Below are positions 1 to 47,805 of a DNA stretch of 47,805 bases, in pieces (the first letter of the stretch is position 1; each line of letters begins with the position of its first letter). The stretch comes from Halegenticoccus soli (lineage in GTDB: Archaea > Halobacteriota > Halobacteria > Halobacteriales > Haloferacaceae). Under the pieces are notes generated by a model. It saw only the letters and a list, made by a program, of their open reading frames with translations, was not told the origin of the DNA and searched no databases. The stretch is taken from contig NZ_PEND01000013.1 in NCBI RefSeq assembly GCF_002844195.1, positions 1 to 47,805 of the forward strand. The letters are read 5' to 3'. Made by a program: the position numbers and the translations under genes.

Positions 1-114
1 CGTTTTCGTAGTAGATGGCGCTTGGAACGTCGCCTAGAGCCGGGAACCGATCCCGCGCCTCCTCGGGCGACACGTCGTACAGCCGATCGGCCGGTGGGTG
101 ATCCGATTTCGCCC
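1..114. repeat. Terminal direct repeat, left copy
   Basis: These 114 bases are identical to 47692-47805. The repeat lies inside the oxidase gene that is cut by both window ends, so it looks like the overlap of a circular molecule rather than a biological repeat. A tandem duplication would give the same picture. Confidence 0.95.
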
Positions 115-439
115 GTCGGGCGTAGATACGTTTCCGACCTTCGGAGAACGCCGTATCGTCCCCCGAACGGCTGGCTACGAGGATGCCACACTGGCTGTAC
201 CCGGTCTCTTCTAATTCGGTCGTCAGCGAGCCGTAATAGCTCGCCGCCTCGACGGCGAACTCGTACCACGCTTCGGATTCGTGACGGCTGGTTTCGGGCG
301 AGACGATACCGGCTCCGGCGTCGGTCGCCCGACCGCGATCCCGTCTGTCGACGAGAAGTGTGCCGGCGCCGGCACTCGAAAGGTGGTATCCGATCGAAGC
401 GCCCACGATTCCCCCGCCGACTATTACGACGTCGTACAC
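1..439 (-). CDS. FAD-dependent amino-acid/amine oxidase (DadA/glycine-oxidase-like), N-terminal part
   Basis: This is the start of an oxidase whose remainder lies at 47018-47691. Reading from a GTG at 439-437 gives MYDVVIVGGGIVGASIGYHL, a classic N-terminal dinucleotide-binding GxGxxG motif, followed by a DR-rich second strand typical of FAD-dependent DAO-family oxidoreductases. The frame stays open through base 1 and, across the 114-base terminal overlap, continues without interruption into the right-end piece. The joined protein has 370 residues, normal for the DAO family. These enzymes oxidise amino or secondary amino acids (D-amino acids, glycine, sarcosine) to imino or keto products using FAD; the substrate cannot be read here. 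The GTG start is supported by a TATA box 24-31 bases upstream, which fits a leaderless transcript. A second DAO-family gene lies at 1516-2679. Confidence 0.88.
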   Translation of the reverse strand, partial: MYDVVIVGGGIVGASIGYHLSSAGAGTLLVDRRDRGRATDAGAGIVSPETSRHESEAWYEFAVEAASYYGSLTTELEETGYSQCGILVASRSGDDTAFSEGRKRIYARRAKSDHPPADRLYDVSPEEARDRFPALGDVPSAIYYEN

Positions 440-462
440 GTGACGGGTGACTTTGTATAGCC

Positions 463-470
463 ATATAAAA
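463..470 (-). promoter_or_regulatory. TATA box of the oxidase gene
   Basis: On the minus strand this reads TTTTATAT, ending 24 bases before the GTG start at 439. That spacing is standard for leaderless haloarchaeal transcripts and supports the GTG as the true start. Confidence 0.5.
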
Positions 471-649
471 CCGCACTGCGGTCCGAACGAGCTTCGCAGC
501 GAGGTGTAATCACGTCGACGTGGGACATCCGTACCGACAGCTGAGTTCCCCGACAGCGGAGACAGCGCACTAATCGCCGGTGCGAACGAGGAGCCGAGTA
601 CTGTTTTGGCGGGGATTCGGCCCAACGGGGGATATCACGTGGCGTGCGG

Positions 650-1129
650 TCATCCTTGTTGTCGGAACTGTTCGAGGACGCTGTCGGGAACCGGGTTGTA
701 GTACTGAAACGTCTCATCCGCACACAGTTCGTCGAAATCAGCGTCGGTAGTGAGGATGGCGTCGGCGTTGTGAGAGCGTGCGAGTGAGATGAGAACGCTG
801 TCGTAGACGTCGTGGTTCTTCTCGGCGCTAATCTCGTAGGCGGCGAGGAGAGCTTCTCGATCCGCCGAGACGATCTCAAGTGGCTGTCTCAGGAACCGCT
901 GAACGACGTTGCGAGCGCGGTGTGGTTCGACGGAGTACCGTTTCGTGAGCACATACTGAGCGCGAAATGGGAAGTAGTCGAACACGAGGAGACACGATTC
1001 TCCCGCGAAGCCTCGCTGGACGTACGGAAAGACGTACTCGTGCCCCGGATGATCGCCGAGTAGCGCGATTGCTATCGCGTTTACGTCGAGAAGGAGCCTC
1101 TCGAATTCGATCCGTTCCTTACCGTCCAT
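650..1129 (-). CDS. PIN-domain ribonuclease, VapC-like toxin
   Basis: This 159-residue protein begins at ATG 1129-1127; a longer frame exists but its extension is basic and falls inside the antitoxin gene. PIN features are a hydrophobic strand ending in Asp15 (LLLD), a central acidic position, and the C-terminal block HDVYDSVLISLARS followed by ILTTDADF, which carry the acidic residues that bind metal in PIN nucleases. VapC toxins cleave tRNA or rRNA when released from their antitoxin. The gene overlaps the upstream AbrB-type gene by 11 bases, the usual antitoxin-then-toxin order. The length is slightly above that of typical VapC proteins (about 130-140 residues). The family call is good, but whether the pair is active or addictive is inference. 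Confidence 0.82.
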   Translation of the reverse strand: MDGKERIEFERLLLDVNAIAIALLGDHPGHEYVFPYVQRGFAGESCLLVFDYFPFRAQYVLTKRYSVEPHRARNVVQRFLRQPLEIVSADREALLAAYEISAEKNHDVYDSVLISLARSHNADAILTTDADFDELCADETFQYYNPVPDSVLEQFRQQG

Positions 1130-1379
1130 TGTCGTCCTCGAGATCACCGAACATCGCTTCCCCCACGTCAAGGAAGGCCTCTTCACCCCACTCGTCCTTA
1201 TTCGACGAAATCGGCGTAAACTGCGGCCTGTTCGGTCGGAGGTGGATTTCGCCCTCCTCGAGGTTGATATCGAGATCGTCGCCCTCTCCGAGCTGGAGTC
1301 GATCGCGGATGTGCTTCGGGAGCGTGATTCGACCCCGGTCGTCGACCGTCACCGTTTCGCGCCCCGTGTTCGTACCCAT
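1119..1379 (-). CDS. AbrB/SpoVT-type antitoxin, VapB-like
   Basis: This protein has 86 residues. The first 50 form a swapped-hairpin AbrB/MazE-type DNA-binding domain, visible as TVTVDDRGRITLPKHIRDRL followed by a GDDLDI strand. The acidic C-terminal tail would wrap around and inhibit the PIN toxin encoded immediately downstream, whose start overlaps this gene's end by 11 bases. VapB proteins normally repress their own operon with the toxin as co-repressor; no operator is obvious. The pair sits between two FAD-dependent oxidase genes and is a plausible stability module for an accessory replicon or island. Confidence 0.85.
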   Translation of the reverse strand: MGTNTGRETVTVDDRGRITLPKHIRDRLQLGEGDDLDINLEEGEIHLRPNRPQFTPISSNKDEWGEEAFLDVGEAMFGDLEDDNGR

Positions 1380-6395: not shown

Positions 6396-7697
6396 CTACG
6401 GCCAGAGCCCTCGTGCTTCGTGTGCTTCCGCGATACGGGACAGCGCGACGATGTAGGCCGCATCGCGCCAAGTGACGTCACGCCGCTCGAACTCCGATCG
6501 AACCGCCCCCCAGGCGGCCCGCATCTCCGCTTCGAGTTCGTCGTTCACCCGTTCGAGCGACCACGCTCGCCGATTGATGTCCTGGAGCCACTCGAAGTAG
6601 CTCACCGTGACACCGCCGGCGTTGGCGAGAATATCGGGAACCACCGCAACGTCTCGCTCGGCGAGGATCGAATCGGCCGTGGAAGTAGTCGGCCCGTTCG
6701 CACCTTCGACGACGAGATCCGCGGCAATCGCCGCCGCGTTCTCCTTTGTGATCACGTTCCCCAGCGCTGCGGGAATGAGTACGTCGACGTCGAGCGTGAG
6801 CAGTTCGTCGTTCGAAATGACGTCGTCCGCATATGTGGTGACGGCCTCCGGCTCCTCGTCGTGCGAGGGGACTGAGGCCGTATCGATCCCCTCCGGTTCG
6901 TACATCGCCCCATTCACGTCGCTGATCGCGACGACTGTCGCACCCCAGTCGTCGAGTAGTCGGGCAGCATTCGCTCCGACGCTCCCGTAGCCCTGGACCG
7001 CAACTGTCGTCTCCTCGAGCTGGCGGTCGTAGTACTCACAGACGAGCTGCGTGACGATCGCAACGCTTCGTCCGGGGGCTTCTTCACGGCCTTCGCTGCC
7101 GCCGACGACCGGCGGCTTGCCGGTGACGACGCCGGGCGTCGTTTCGCCCTCCTGCATCGAGTACGCGTCCATCAGCCACGCCATCGTCCGGGGATCCGTC
7201 CCCATGTCCGGGGCGGGAATGTCCTGGTTGGGGCCGATGACGTCACGGATCTCCTGTGCGAATCGACGCGTCAGCCGCTCTTTCTCTGCCGAACTCAGCT
7301 CCTTCGGGTTGACAGCCACACCGCCCTTGGCGCCCCCGAACGGGAGATCCATGACCGCGCACTTCCAGGTCATCCACATGCCGAGCCCGACACATTCGTC
7401 TCTGGTCACCTCGGGGTGGTATCGAAGCCCACCTTTGTACGGCCCTCTGACGCTATCGTGTTGGGCCCGATAGCCGGTGAACACCTCGACCGTCCCGTCG
7501 TCTCGTTCGATCGGGACCGTTACCTCGTGGACCTTCTTCGGGTACCTGAGCCGTTCGACGATACTCGGGTCAATCTCGAGTCGAGTAGCGGCGTGAGACA
7601 GCTGTCGGCGGGCCGTTTCGAGCGCCGATTCCGACTCCGTCGATTCTGCCGGTGCGTCTCCGGACCCGTCGTGGTCGCTCCTAGACGTCGATGCCAT
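6396..7697 (-). CDS. gdhA: Glutamate dehydrogenase (NAD(P)-dependent)
   Basis: This 433-residue enzyme starts at ATG 7697 ([10 protein letters not shown]); a longer reading frame upstream overlaps the zinc-ribbon gene and is not needed. Family signatures are [20 protein letters not shown] (substrate-binding region), the catalytic-lysine block [15 protein letters not shown], the [10 protein letters not shown] segment and the Rossmann motif [16 protein letters not shown] of the nucleotide-binding domain. It interconverts glutamate and 2-oxoglutarate plus ammonia in the cytoplasm, hexameric in relatives. Length is normal for archaeal GDH and nothing looks broken. It follows a 47-residue zinc-ribbon gene by 2 bases, so the two are almost certainly co-transcribed. 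Together with the amino-acid oxidases and asparaginase it gives the element a nitrogen-catabolism flavour. Confidence 0.95.
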
Positions 7698-7699
7698 GG

Positions 7700-7843
7700 T
7701 TATTCGAGCGGCATCTGCCGATTTCGCATCGGTTCGCCACAGTCGGGACACCGACCGGGGTTGTTTTCAGCGACGATGATGTTCCCACACTCGAAGCACT
7801 CGTACGGACTTTCTTCGCCGGGAGTCGTCTCGATATCTCTCAT
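7700..7843 (-). CDS. Small zinc-ribbon (rubrerythrin-like) protein
   Basis: This is a 47-residue protein beginning at ATG 7843. It has two CxxC knuckles, [10 protein letters not shown] and RCPDCGEPM, the arrangement of a rubredoxin/rubrerythrin-type or zinc-ribbon fold, and little else. It ends 2 bases before the gdhA start, so it is the first gene of a two-gene unit. Similar stand-alone ribbons are common in haloarchaea and are usually listed as rubrerythrin-like domain proteins. Whether it binds iron or zinc, and whether it contacts glutamate dehydrogenase, is unknown. Confidence 0.82.
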
Positions 7844-7955
7844 GGTTGGCCACGAGCGCCGGCAGGCGATCTGGGGCACTCTACACGGGAGTAATAAGTG
7901 TCTAAGGGAATAATCGGGGGTTTACTACCAAACCGCTCTCTGAATCCGTGGTTCG

Positions 7956-10838
7956 TTATTCAACGCCCCCGGCAGGAGCGGCAACGGAGCGGTTGGTCTC
8001 TTCGAAGAGCGTCGCAAACAGTTTGCGCTGGACGGTCCGAGCGTGCTTGTAGAACGCGGGCGGGGAGATCTCGAGCGTCTCCGCAACATCCTCTCCTGTG
8101 CTCTCGCGAGGCGATTCGAAGAACCCGCTGTAGTACGCTGTCTGGACCACCTCGAGCTGTCGCTCGGTCAGCTTCTCGAGGAACTTCGAGTAGAGGTCGT
8201 GCTCCATCGACTGATCGAGCGTCTGCTTAGCACGGAGTTCGACGGTGGAGAATGTCTCGCGAACGAGTCGCGTGATCATTCGAATGTCGATACTATCCGG
8301 AATCTCGATGACGAGCGTCGTGGTGGTCGGATCAGCGGTCGCCTCCCGGAAGACGGCGCCGTGATCGGCTAACTCCAGGGCGAGGAACGGCTGTGTGAGC
8401 CGTAATCGCAAGACGCCTCCGTCCCCATCTGCGCTGATCTGTTGGACGTCGTCGACCGCGACCAGCCGAGATGCCGCTTCGGCGACGTCCTCGGGAGATG
8501 CATCTTCGACGGTGACGAAGACGTAACTCCCCTCCGTGGATTGTTGGACGCCACCCTGATACGAGAGTGTACATGCCGCGTCCTGAGCGAGCCGTGAGAG
8601 GACGAACGTCGGGTCATCGATAACGAACTCGACGCGAGTTATCGACGTCGTGAGCAGCGCGTTCTTCCGCTCAAGCGCGCTGAGCGCAGACGCGATGGTT
8701 TCTCCGAGCTCGGCCAGGACGGCCTTCGCGGTGTCGTCGAACGCGTCTCGGGTCGGTGCGTAGACCGTTAATACGCCGTGGGTGAGATCGTTGTACGCGA
8801 GCGGAATACTCAGCACCGAGAGGTAGTCGCGAGCGAGCGCGTCTTTCCGCCACGGTTCGTCGCGGAGACCGGCGGCGACGTTCGTCACCATCGTCACGTC
8901 TCCGGTCCCCGCCGTTTTCCCGGCTGGCTCCGCATCTGAGCCGGCGATGGCGAACGACTGGCAGTCCAGATAGCCCTGTTCGCTTCCCGCCCAGGCTCGC
9001 GGTTCCACCGCGTCGCTCGTCGGATCGGCCGTCCCGATCCAGGCGAATCGAAACCGGTCGTCGGCGGTCAACAGTTCACAGACCGTATGGTCGATCTCCT
9101 CGCGCGTTTCGGCCTGGACGAGCGCCTGATCGATTTCCCGAATCGTCTCGTTGATGCGATTCAGATCGGTTAGCTGTTCGTTTTGTTGCTGGAGCGTGCG
9201 GTCCTGCTCACGGAGTCGTGACTCCCGGGTGATGCGGTCGAGAGCCGCTTCAGCCGTCGCTGCGAGGAGATCGGCCAGCTCCCGGGTCACATCGTCGAAG
9301 GCACCCACCTGATTCGAGCCCGCGACGAACACGCCGTGATTGCCGAGCGGGATGTAGGTCGCACTCCGGAGGTCAGTCGCCCTGTTTTCGAGTCGGTCTG
9401 CCTCGTGGACGTCGTCGAAAAACAGTATCTCGTCCTCGACGAAGCTGTAGCTCGGAAGCGTCTCTCCGTCGGCGCGAACGGCCGGAAGCGGTCCGTTCAG
9501 CTCTTTCATCGTCGCCGAGCGTGCTGCGGGCCGAAGGTCGTTGGCATCAGCATCGAAGAGATAGACAGCACTCGCATCGAGATCGAGGACACCGGGTGTG
9601 TCGTCGACGACGTGCTGGGCGATTTCCTGGTGGGTTTCGGCATAGAGGAAATCACGGGCGGTCTCGTGGAGCGTCGCAAGCGCTTCCTCGCGTTGCTTCC
9701 GTTTCGTAACGTCCCGACAGCTGAAGAGGAGCGTTCCGTCCTGAATCGAGACTTCGCGCACGTTGACCAAGAGCGTGTGCTCGCGCCCGGCTTTGTCGGT
9801 CGCCGTGCACTCGATGTTCTTGAGGACGCCGTTTTCCGCGAGTTGGTCGCGATCGACGAGCTCCTCACCGAGGAGCTCGTCGATAGTCCCCAGGTCGCGA
9901 ATCTCCGCGGCCGTATAGCCGAAGATGAAGTGGACGTTGGGACAGACGTAGGTGTACTCGCCGGCGTCGTCCGTGATGAGGACGGTGTCGGTCATGTTGT
10001 TGAGCGTAACGCGGTGAAGTTCCTCGGACTGACGGAGATTGCGCTCTAGATCGACACGCTCGGTGACGTCGACGCCCTCGACAACGATCGAGACGAGGTC
10101 ACCGCGTTCGTTATCGACCGGGCGTACGGAGAGATCGATGATGCGCGGATCGTCGAGGTGCGGCGGCTGTGGGATGACGGCGGTACCGAACGTCCCGTCG
10201 AGTGCGTTCTTCACGATCCGGTGCACCTCCGCCTCCGTCGTGTCCGCGTGCGACCACCACGGGAGCGTCCAGAATGGCTCGCCGACAAGAGTTTCGACGT
10301 CCTCGTCGATCATCTCCCGCGCCGTCTGATTCACGCGGGCGAGTGAGCCGTCCGGGTCGAGCACCCACGTCGCCGTCCGCGAATCGTTGAAGATCGCATC
10401 GAACTGTCTGGCGCGCTCTCGCCGGGAAATCGCCCGCTGTGCCGACCGAATCGCCCGTTCGGTTCGAGCCACCAGCTCCTCGATCATCTGGTCAGCCGAT
10501 TCCGTCAGTGCGACGTAATCGGTAACCCCGGCCCCGATGGCCTCACTGGCGATGGTTTCACTTCCGGACGTAGCGCCGATTATCACGGGGTGCGCGGCAG
10601 TTTCGTTGCGGATCTCTCTGAGCAGTTCGACTCCCGTCGTCTCGTCGAGCGCGTACTCGCTGATGAGACAGTCTGTGGCCCGCTTCCGGAAGACTTCGAG
10701 CGCCTCCGCTCCGGTTTGAACTCGCTGCACAGTCGCGTCAGTCCCAGTTTCGAGCGTCGCTGCGAATCGCCCGACCCACTCACTTGTTCCGACGAGTAGG
10801 ACGGCCGACGAATCAAGGACGGTGGGGGAAGACGCCAT
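7956..10838 (-). CDS. PAS/GAF sensory regulator with bacterio-opsin-activator and HTH-10 domains
   Basis: This 960-residue haloarchaeal one-component regulator has, in order: a receiver-like domain (about 10-130) in which the expected phospho-acceptor Asp is not evident (LISEYAL), a linker coiled coil, PAS (about 150-270), PAS (about 285-385, with YTYVCPNVHFIFGY), GAF (about 390-545), GAF (about 570-715), a bacterio-opsin activator domain (about 720-870) and a C-terminal HTH-10 DNA-binding domain (about 890-945), with LTERQLEVVQTAYYSGFF and the recognition region ISPPAFYKHARTVQRKL. Relatives sense light, oxygen or redox through PAS/GAF and activate transcription. No histidine-kinase domain is present. 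It stands alone between MBL-fold and zinc-ribbon genes on the same strand, so its targets cannot be read from context. Confidence 0.9.
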   Translation of the reverse strand: MASSPTVLDSSAVLLVGTSEWVGRFAATLETGTDATVQRVQTGAEALEVFRKRATDCLISEYALDETTGVELLREIRNETAAHPVIIGATSGSETIASEAIGAGVTDYVALTESADQMIEELVARTERAIRSAQRAISRRERARQFDAIFNDSRTATWVLDPDGSLARVNQTAREMIDEDVETLVGEPFWTLPWWSHADTTEAEVHRIVKNALDGTFGTAVIPQPPHLDDPRIIDLSVRPVDNERGDLVSIVVEGVDVTERVDLERNLRQSEELHRVTLNNMTDTVLITDDAGEYTYVCPNVHFIFGYTAAEIRDLGTIDELLGEELVDRDQLAENGVLKNIECTATDKAGREHTLLVNVREVSIQDGTLLFSCRDVTKRKQREEALATLHETARDFLYAETHQEIAQHVVDDTPGVLDLDASAVYLFDADANDLRPAARSATMKELNGPLPAVRADGETLPSYSFVEDEILFFDDVHEADRLENRATDLRSATYIPLGNHGVFVAGSNQVGAFDDVTRELADLLAATAEAALDRITRESRLREQDRTLQQQNEQLTDLNRINETIREIDQALVQAETREEIDHTVCELLTADDRFRFAWIGTADPTSDAVEPRAWAGSEQGYLDCQSFAIAGSDAEPAGKTAGTGDVTMVTNVAAGLRDEPWRKDALARDYLSVLSIPLAYNDLTHGVLTVYAPTRDAFDDTAKAVLAELGETIASALSALERKNALLTTSITRVEFVIDDPTFVLSRLAQDAACTLSYQGGVQQSTEGSYVFVTVEDASPEDVAEAASRLVAVDDVQQISADGDGGVLRLRLTQPFLALELADHGAVFREATADPTTTTLVIEIPDSIDIRMITRLVRETFSTVELRAKQTLDQSMEHDLYSKFLEKLTERQLEVVQTAYYSGFFESPRESTGEDVAETLEISPPAFYKHARTVQRKLFATLFEETNRSVAAPAGGVE

Positions 10839-11150
10839 TATTCGATACCTGGGGACCGACGGGAATGCAGCTTACCGCCGGTTCCGGCCCAGCCTTGCTG
10901 CTGTACTGGATCGAGATTCGCGCTCATTACTAGTCACCCATCAAACCGACAAGAGACAAAGGCGTTTGCTATTTAGCCCCAGAGGCAATCGCGGGTTGCT
11001 CGGTTATCCCCGTACCCTTCCGTTGGAACCGCCTCGCTTGGTATATCCTTTCGTTCGACGAACCGGTGACCCTCGTTCGGAGTACGTGTGTCGGCGTGAT
11101 TGTCGTCGGTGTCGCAGGTCTCCACCTCGCTTCTGGTGGTCACTGACTAC
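10839..11150. other. Intergenic region upstream of the sensory regulator
   Basis: I see no convincing coding frame in these 312 bases. The stretch separates the end of the MBL-fold gene from the start of the regulator on the minus strand, so it should hold the regulator's promoter; no TATA box at the expected spacing is clear. Confidence 0.4.
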
Positions 11151-12736: not shown

Positions 12737-12889
12737 TCATCACAAAAGACCAGAGGTCTGCCGAACGACCACGGTGGACGGGCTCAACTGGAGAGATCAG
12801 TATTCTGTGGCCTCAGCCGTGTTCGTAGCCACGCACCGCGGTACCTGGTGAAACGAGACCTAGAGCGATACTTAGTGAACTACCCTACC

Positions 12890-13419
12890 CTACTCGCTCA
12901 CGGCTGACGCCGTTCGCTCCGTGAGGGGAGGGCTTCCTGCTTCCACGACGCGCTTTGCAGATACAGGAGTATCCACAGGGAGCGCAGTCTCCACAGGCGT
13001 TAATTCGGAGTATCCCACTCCTACGTCTTCGAGGCCACGAAAAAGAATGTTCCACGCCGCGTTCGCGTCCCTGTCCGCCTCAAATCTACAGGCGGGACAG
13101 GAGTGTTCACGGACCCACAACGGCTTGTCCGTCGAAACGCCGCACGCCGCGCACTCCTTGGTCGTCCCTCTCGGTCGACCGCCACGAAGTGCGTCCCCTC
13201 TCGCTCGCACTTATAGTCGAGCAACGAGAGGAAAGTTCGCCACGCCGCAGACGCCGTGTTGCGGCTATTCGACGGCGACTCCATCATCCTCTTCACGTTC
13301 AGGTCTTCAACTGCTACGAGGTCGTACTCCCGAGCGTAGTAGTTCGAGAGCTTGTGCAAGAAGTCGCGGCGCTTCCGTCGGAGGACGGCGTGACACTCCG
13401 CGACTCGACGCCCCATCAT
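12890..13419 (-). pseudogene. TnpB (IS200/IS605 family) remnant, 5'-truncated and frameshifted
   Basis: The upstream frame gives the middle of TnpB (ECHAVLRRKRRDFLHKLSNY, LVAVEDLNVKRMMESP with the RuvC-type Glu, then AAWRTFLSLLDYKCEREGTH). Near 13174-13180 it loses frame. A second frame carries the zinc-ribbon end (ECAACGVSTD, HSCPACRFEADRDANAAWNI with the last RuvC Asp) through to a normal-looking C-terminus ERTASAVSE. Reading VAVD-(P)RGTTKEC across the break fits loss of a single C in a CCC run. The N-terminal half is missing and the cut end abuts a half SDR gene. TnpB is the RNA-guided nuclease of IS605 elements; this copy cannot make it. No tnpA is present. Confidence 0.88.
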
Positions 13420-13762
13420 GAAAGAACAGGGTCACGGAGCGATTGTGAACATCTCCACCTTCTCAGCGTTCGAACCCGCAAGCGACTTCCCCGTTTCGTC
13501 GGTGCTTCGGGCGGGACTCGGAAGTTTCACCAAACTCTACGCCGATCAATATGCATCCGACCGCATCCGGATGAACTCCGTTCAGCCCGGGTTCGTCGAT
13601 AGTTACGAGATCGATGAAGAAACGAAGGAGGAGATCCCACTGGGGCGCTCCGCGAAGACCGCAGAGATCGCCGACGCAGTGGCGTACCTGCTCTCGCCGG
13701 CTGCGAGCTATCTAACGGGCCAGAACATTCGCGTCGATGGTGGCCTGACCTCGTCTGTGTAG
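13418..13762 (+). pseudogene. SDR-family dehydrogenase, N-terminal half missing
   Basis: The 114-residue frame is the C-terminal half of a short-chain dehydrogenase: GAIVNISTFSAFEPASDF (the strand ending in the catalytic Ser region), a helix with SSVLRAGLGSFTKLYADQYA, IRMNSVQPGFVDS, and the end SYLTGQNIRVDGGL that is diagnostic of the fold. The family is normally about 250 residues, and the cofactor-binding GxxxGxG half is absent. The frame begins exactly where the tnpB remnant begins on the other strand, so both were cut at one junction. It is probably non-functional. It follows the subclass in which the YxxxK block is atypical, so the substrate cannot be inferred. Confidence 0.8.
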
Positions 13763-45965: not shown

Positions 45966-47017
45966 CGCGTCTCGGATCCCTGCTCTACCCCTTCGATCGG
46001 TGAGTCATGAGGCTGAGAGGAAAGGGTATCGGAGGGGTTCGCCGATGGATACTTCGCGTTCCCTCTTCACGAAGTGTCTCCTCGTGCTCTCGCGAGGTGT
46101 GTCGACAGCTGCTCTCTTCGAGGAAGTGGTCGATCGCCTACCACGCATAGCTGTCGGAATTGTGGTTTCTATGGTGCTCTGAACCGTCAAGAGTGGACCC
46201 TCATAGATCTCGACCCTACGCCAGTTTTGTCTGGAGAGGTTTAGGCTGGTAGCTGACCGGGTGAATGTGCTCCCCGTCGGGCAGACGAAAACGTGCGGCA
46301 GTGAGAAGGAGCGCTGAGCATCTCCCTTTGGGCTCTCGATCTGTTGTCGCATAAGATCCGTTACGCACCCCAGCACGTGATCGTAATCAGAGCGACTAGG
46401 AGAAGCCACGGTCCGTGGCTTCTTCTCTCATACTTGAAGACCCAACCTATAGAGCGCAGCACCCCCAGTGGAGGAGACGGTAGTCTACAGATATAGTTGT
46501 ACTACGCCGCCTGGGCGTCCGGGTCATCACGGGGACTGTCACGAACGCTGAAAACCCGGCATAAGGTAAATGTATCGCCATAACTCAAACGGTGATTATC
46601 GCCCATACTTACCCTACTACGCTTAGTTAGGGTTCAAATCTCGATATATTGTCAATTTGCATCGGGCTCAGAAAACGGAAAATCGTTGTCAGCGCCGCTA
46701 ACGTCCTAACGAGGCCGTCTAAAACGGTATCAGCAAGGATCGGTAGGTATGTCCGTCGAGTATCGCTTGCCGTGGGCTGAGATCATACGGAGCTTGAACA
46801 CTTTTGTTGGCCAAGCAGCGTGACGAGCCTCGCTCAGGCCTCGTCGACTCCCCCGGTCGCTCACGAGGTATCTCGCTCGTCGCGGGCCTACCGAAGAGAG
46901 ATGACTGCCTTCGCGATCGCCGACTACGGTGCCCACGATGGGATCCGTATCGGGTCTCCAGGCGGTTCGGTACCGCCGGCGTCGATCGATCGAGTGCCGT
47001 ACCCATCGACCGGGTAG
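45966..47017. other. 1,052-base region without a recognised gene
   Basis: This is the longest gap. It contains a perfect 11-bp hairpin (AGAAGCCACGG-T-CCGTGGCTTCT, 46401-46423) and an AT-rich tract near 46560-46700 with ACCCTA/TAGGGT flanking repeats (46615-46631). On the plus strand 46820-47017, a GTG-started frame of 65 residues (AIADYGAHDGIRIGSP) ends base-to-base against the oxidase stop; it could be a real small gene or a fragment. I see no replication protein, tRNA or transposase here. On a circular element this is a reasonable place to look for an origin. Confidence 0.4.
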
Positions 47018-47805
47018 CTAGACGAATCGAGCCGGGGAGAACGCCGACGCGTCCGTATCCACGTTTTTCCCCAGTAGCATGTCGGCGACGATCTTTCCCG
47101 TGTACGGACCGAGCTGGAGTCCGGTCGGGCCGTGACCGGTTGCCAGATACGCCCCGTCGACCGACGGAACGGGGCCGATCACGGGTAAGCCGTCGGCGCT
47201 GAGCGGGCGGAGGCCGACATCGATCCCGTCGATAGCCGCTTCGGCGAGACCGGGCGCGACGCGTAACGCCTCCTGCAGCACTTCACGCACGCCGGCGGCG
47301 GTCGTGCGTGGAGCGAAGCCCGAACCGGTCTCGCGGGTGGCCCCGACCGCGACGCGGTTGTCGGGCCACGGCACGAAATAGTACCCTCCGTACGTGGTCA
47401 GAATCGGCCAGATCGACGTGTTCGTGTCGTGCAGATCGAGGTGGATCAGCTGTCCGCGCTGCGGTTCGACCGGGACGCGCGCGTTCAGTTGCTCCCCGAA
47501 CGCGCTGGACCACGCTCCTCCGGCGATCACGACGGCTGACGTTTCGTACGACCCGCTTTCGGTAACGATACCGGTGACGGCGCCCCGCGTTTCGGTTATT
47601 CGTTCGACGCTGTCGTGTACCGTTTCCAGTCCGTGGGTCGCCCCCGCCCGAAGGAGGGCGTTTTGCACCGCCGTCCCGTCGACGCGACCGGCGTTTTCGT
47701 AGTAGATGGCGCTTGGAACGTCGCCTAGAGCCGGGAACCGATCCCGCGCCTCCTCGGGCGACACGTCGTACAGCCGATCGGCCGGTGGGTGATCCGATTT
47801 CGCCC
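47018..47805 (-). CDS. FAD-dependent amino-acid/amine oxidase (DadA/glycine-oxidase-like), C-terminal part
   Basis: This is the continuation of the oxidase begun at 1-439; bases 47692-47805 repeat the first 114 bases of the window. The region gives VSPEEARDRFPALGDVPSAI, AVVIAGGAWSSAFGEQLNAR, the strand QRGQLIHLDLHDTNTSIWPI, the GGYYFVPWPDNRVAVGATRE segment and the C-terminal FAD-contact block DGAYLATGHGPTGLQLGPYT, which are consistent with the DAO family. Sequence after 47018 ends the gene with a TAG read on the minus strand. The protein made across the join is complete (370 residues). No separate start is needed at 47764, an internal GTG. Confidence 0.9.
   Translation of the reverse strand, partial: AKSDHPPADRLYDVSPEEARDRFPALGDVPSAIYYENAGRVDGTAVQNALLRAGATHGLETVHDSVERITETRGAVTGIVTESGSYETSAVVIAGGAWSSAFGEQLNARVPVEPQRGQLIHLDLHDTNTSIWPILTTYGGYYFVPWPDNRVAVGATRETGSGFAPRTTAAGVREVLQEALRVAPGLAEAAIDGIDVGLRPLSADGLPVIGPVPSVDGAYLATGHGPTGLQLGPYTGKIVADMLLGKNVDTDASAFSPARFV
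47692..47805. repeat. Terminal direct repeat, right copy
   Basis: Identical over 114 bases to 1-114; base 47692 corresponds to base 1. Trimming one copy gives a 47,691-bp circle. Confidence 0.95.

Follow-up and report, generated by a model that had tools for sequence, protein, structure and literature searches.

The two ends of the 47,805-bp window analyzed here, which is the entire contig C13 of a 15-contig, 4.6-Mb haloarchaeal assembly, carry the same bases, and this raises the question of whether the contig represents a circular molecule. A first-pass annotation had proposed a probable 47,691-bp circle, based on the identity of bases 1-114 with bases 47692-47805 and on a 370-residue oxidase frame running through the join. 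Both observations were reproduced. The 114 bp were the longest exact end overlap, chance identity was excluded, and the frame was recovered on the minus strand. Only part of the conclusion could be retained: a 47,691-bp loop exists in the assembly graph, but overlap and intact gene do not show a circle, because a second contig of the assembly, C3, has these ends too, and its gene is no less intact.

To trace the origin of the overlap, the contig ends of the assembly were compared. The 114 bases were also present at both the start and the end of C3 (561,319 bp), where C3 and C13 have exactly 127 bases in common start to start and exactly 127 end to end. The complete repeat at the node, R, is an exact 140-bp sequence that corresponds in C13 to 47679-47691 followed by 1-127. 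An overlap of exactly 127 bases also connects ten further contig-end pairs of the assembly, and contig C12 closes on itself with the same length, which puts the k-mer length k at 127. We take the assembler to be SPAdes, with its handling of loops and repeats, judging from this k value and from general knowledge. With a shared node sequence of 140 bp and k = 127, the end overlap is therefore 2 x 127 - 140 = 114. Thus, the length of the overlap is set by k and the repeat, not by the ends of a molecule, and repeat-induced assembly closure, one of three options offered by the first-pass annotation, explains it exactly. A cleanly closed circular contig would overlap itself by k, and its ends would lead only to each other; C13 overlaps itself by 114 instead of 127 bp, and both of its ends overlap C3 as well.

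We regard it as almost certain that a figure-eight repeat node caused the end overlap. Two oxidase genes in direct orientation, about 90% identical, share the exact tract R, and the assembler, at k = 127, did not decide between the two ways into R and the two ways out of it, releasing C13 and C3 as contigs that each begin and end on it. De Bruijn (SPAdes-type) assemblies behave in this way at repeat-cut loops: the overlap between one contig end and another is exactly k bases long, and the overlap of a loop with itself is 2k - L, L being the length of the repeat through which it passes. Contigs C11 and C2 form a second repeat-cut loop in the same assembly. The C3/C13 case differs from a plain repeat-cut loop in that two lobes close on one node, so that two topologies fit the graph, either a single circle of 608,896 bp or a pair of circles, of 47,691 and 561,205 bp. 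Hence, a circle is not established by contig ends that match and a frame that stays intact over the join, whereas comparing all contig ends and solving 2k - L separates repeat-cut loops from true circles.

The join lies in a gene for a 370-residue FAD-dependent oxidase, which is read on the minus strand from 439 to 1 and onward from 47691 to 47018 (Table 1). By sequence, the nearest solved structures were 6pxs and then glycine oxidases; the protein scored below the NCBIfam ThiO cut-off. C3 carries its oxidase gene in the same orientation, so that the two form a direct repeat, and both contain the 140-bp tract. The C3 and C13 blocks were 89.5% identical over 1,382 aligned columns. Beyond the block, no similarity between the two contigs was detected in the remainder of the flanking stretches, for which 5 kb were compared to either side, and the C3 neighbor on the upstream side of its oxidase differs from the PIN-domain (VapC-like) gene of C13. 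The oxidase frame was open in all four constructed joins (C13-C13, C3-C3, C13-C3, and C3-C13), and an open frame across the join is therefore uninformative on circularity. The joins can nevertheless be told apart by sequence: the base preceding R is G in C13 and A in C3, the base following it is A in C13 and G in C3, and the differences become denser at greater distance from R. Database searches yielded no close relative of the oxidase, the nearest full-length ones being 48-56% identical, which made a half-gene phylogeny pairing left with right halves impossible.

Table 1. Features at the ends of contig C13
Feature	Coordinates	Strand	Basis or remark
Last 127 bp of repeat R, common with the start of C3	1..127		identity over exactly 127 bp, start to start
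First 127 bp of repeat R, common with the end of C3	47679..47805		identity over exactly 127 bp, end to end
Right portion of the 1.38-kb block of homology with the C3 copy (89.5%)	1..607		C3/C13 comparison
Left portion of the 1.38-kb block of homology with the C3 copy	46933..47805		C3/C13 comparison
FAD-dependent (glycine/D-amino-acid-type) oxidase gene, 5' part	1..439	-	GTG start at 439
Same oxidase gene, 3' part including the stop codon	47018..47691	-	frame read across the join
PIN-domain (VapC-like) gene, upstream of the oxidase	650..1186	-	domain scan

The remainder of C13 contains several features of separate interest. At 6396-10845, a block of gdhB and a bacterio-opsin activator is kept on at least 12 haloarchaeal plasmids with 76-82% DNA identity. 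Many copies of a dispersed element, about 540 bp long and located in C13 at 12875-13412, occur in this genome and in a genome of the same genus, G001; the C13 element adjoins the remnant of a short-chain dehydrogenase (13418-13762) that starts in mid-domain. The segment 24869-31686 holds a sulfur-handling cassette with two rhodanese/metallo-beta-lactamase proteins, TauE, DUF6691/YeeE, and TusA, which resembles pNRC200 44812-48033.

The two oxidase copies were then inspected for signs of exchange. In their coding alignment, the identical run of 140 nt stood against a next longest run of 35 nt, and codon shuffling of the alignment reached a 140-nt run in 3 of 20,000 trials. Distant homologues were conserved at 26-50% within the tract, less than the 42-57% seen outside it; protein constraint therefore does not explain the identical run. 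The alignment thus points to a likely recent exchange between the oxidase copies, by gene conversion or crossover. Very efficient gene conversion between genome copies has been described for Haloferax, the tracts measured there being much longer (PMC8223754).

Replication and partition genes were compared as well. C13 contained no Orc1/Cdc6, no RepH-type relative, and no ParA-type partition ATPase. Contigs C2, C3, C11, and C12 each encode both Orc1/Cdc6 and ParA, with two Orc1/Cdc6 and two ParA genes on C3 and two Orc1/Cdc6 genes plus ParA on C11. Among haloarchaeal comparison plasmids of 33-57 kb, a small, hand-picked sample of seven of which four were read only to 50 kb, an initiator (Orc1/Cdc6 or a RepH relative) was found on all seven and ParA on six; pNG100 has no annotated ParA, which indicates that ParA is not strictly required. 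If C13 is a circle, it belongs to the size class of these plasmids (pNG100-pNG400 and others), but the seven inspected have Orc1/Cdc6 or RepH-type initiators, whereas C13 has none and lacks ParA as well. C13 may still have a diverged or novel initiator, or it may be served by initiators in trans. No iteron array was present among the listed C13 repeats of at least 20 nt, and the crude patterns applied for ORB origin-like repeats missed even known Orc loci, which makes them uninformative. The GC content of C13 (0.608) and C3 (0.585), both below that of C2 and C10 (0.69), does not discriminate.

In another approach, exact repeats of at least 127 bp were surveyed in 1.68 Mb of the assembly (C2, C3, and C10-C15). 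Apart from R, the repeats of measurable length were an inverted one of 251 bp and a direct one of 146 bp, both in C2, and one of 140 bp common to C2 and C11; C2 was assembled straight through all three. Some contigs showed end structures of their own. C2 (730,647 bp) has the same 127 bp at its start and end in inverted orientation, both ends entering one repeat from the same side. C15 (4,504 bp, including 424 N) has a 127-bp dovetail at each end, one connecting it to C1/C8 and the opposite one to C6/C9; C15 is an unresolved two-copy repeat, possibly an rRNA operon. C11 (95,633 bp) overlaps itself by 114 bp, owing to a 140-bp exact tract common to C2:633610-633749. This tract sits in a beta-helix gene with an 84% identical background, and triplet shuffling reached it in 0 of 5,000 trials; a third copy of the gene is located at C13 16035-17417, with 81-88% identity to those on C11 and C2. 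The identical tracts at C3/C13 and C2/C11 are equally long, 140 bp each.

The survey bears on the view that C13 resides permanently in a 608,896-bp megaplasmid (C3 plus C13), flanked by the two oxidase copies, and that the contig break is an assembly failure. The repeat node lets C3 and C13 join, and the distribution of replication and partition genes, none on C13 and two of each kind on C3, agrees with such an arrangement. However, since C2 crosses comparable repeats, one would expect a C13 that is only integrated to have been merged as C3-R-C13-R-C3, and repeats of 140, 146, and 251 bp were indeed resolved in this assembly. We consider this arrangement, which is the fixed form of the explanation preferred below, rather unlikely.

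The same results were weighed for C13 as a stable autonomous circular plasmid of 47,691 bp, with C3 as a separate circle carrying a homologous oxidase gene. A physical C13 circle is possible, given that comparable repeats of 140-251 bp on linear paths did not stop the assembler and C13 was nonetheless left unmerged from C3. A real circle could also look like C13, since the C11 loop, equipped with Orc1/Cdc6 and ParA genes, likewise overlaps itself by 114 bp. Against autonomy stand the missing Orc1/Cdc6, RepH, and ParA genes, given an initiator on every comparison plasmid, and the fact that the listed relatives of C13 are blocks on much larger plasmids of at least 135 kb. On balance, stable autonomy appears unlikely. 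Tandem amplification of a 47.7-kb unit within C3 would give the same graph, with extra C13 coverage, but it has no positive evidence and is very improbable. The chance that C13 is the genome of a phage or plasmid-prophage, about 47.7 kb long and terminally redundant, is negligible, and a phage origin was rejected: size and end redundancy are superficially similar, but the C13 ends are common to C3, Pfam and NCBIfam scans of the main ORFs found no phage structural, integrase, or terminase family, and there was no match for C13 1-25000 in a phage collection or for the join sequence in IMG/VR.

Taken together, C13 probably depends on the C3 megaplasmid, in a fixed or a switching form; this estimate covers both forms and overlaps with that for the permanent co-integrate. 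All probabilities expressed here for cause and physical state are judgements and were not computed. Replication of C13 would most likely rely on C3, with at least some of the DNA copies holding C13 as part of the 608,896-bp co-integrate. The 47.7-kb segment would be excised or re-inserted by homologous recombination within the tract that the oxidase genes have in common, and each product would keep an intact oxidase gene. An excised circle without its own initiator would need re-insertion or initiators acting in trans. The two conflicting lines of evidence would both be satisfied by coexisting fused and split forms, or by C3 with and without C13. A mixture or interconversion of C13/C3 forms comes not far below an even chance. 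Its specific version, in which the 47.7-kb segment loops in and out of the 561-kb megaplasmid via the 140-bp tract and both forms coexist in polyploid cells, is put forward tentatively. There is a slight chance that the state is none of mixture, fixed co-integrate, and fixed separate circle. In the one same-genus genome inspected (G001), no stretch bridges C13 and C3 ends.

The closest known counterpart of the looping proposed for C13 is found in Haloferax volcanii, where recombination between the direct repeats sod1 and sod2 split a chromosome in a strain that is polymorphic for the rearrangement (PMC6063281). As in that case, C3/C13 involves paralogous genes in direct orientation, between which recombination would turn one replicon into two and leave an intact gene on each product; homologous genes in direct orientation lie at both junctions, and signs of exchange are present. 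The two cases differ in the extent of identity, the sod1/sod2 repeats being essentially identical over about 600 bp, whereas only 140 bp are identical in the 1.38-kb C3/C13 block of about 90% identity. Furthermore, the sod1/sod2 products each had origins, whereas C13 carries no known initiator, and the C3/C13 recombination event is inferred. If the looping is true, C3/C13 would be the counterpart in nature, and a reversible one, to the rearrangement that sod1/sod2 underwent in the laboratory, and would provide a simple test case for changes of replicon number in haloarchaea.
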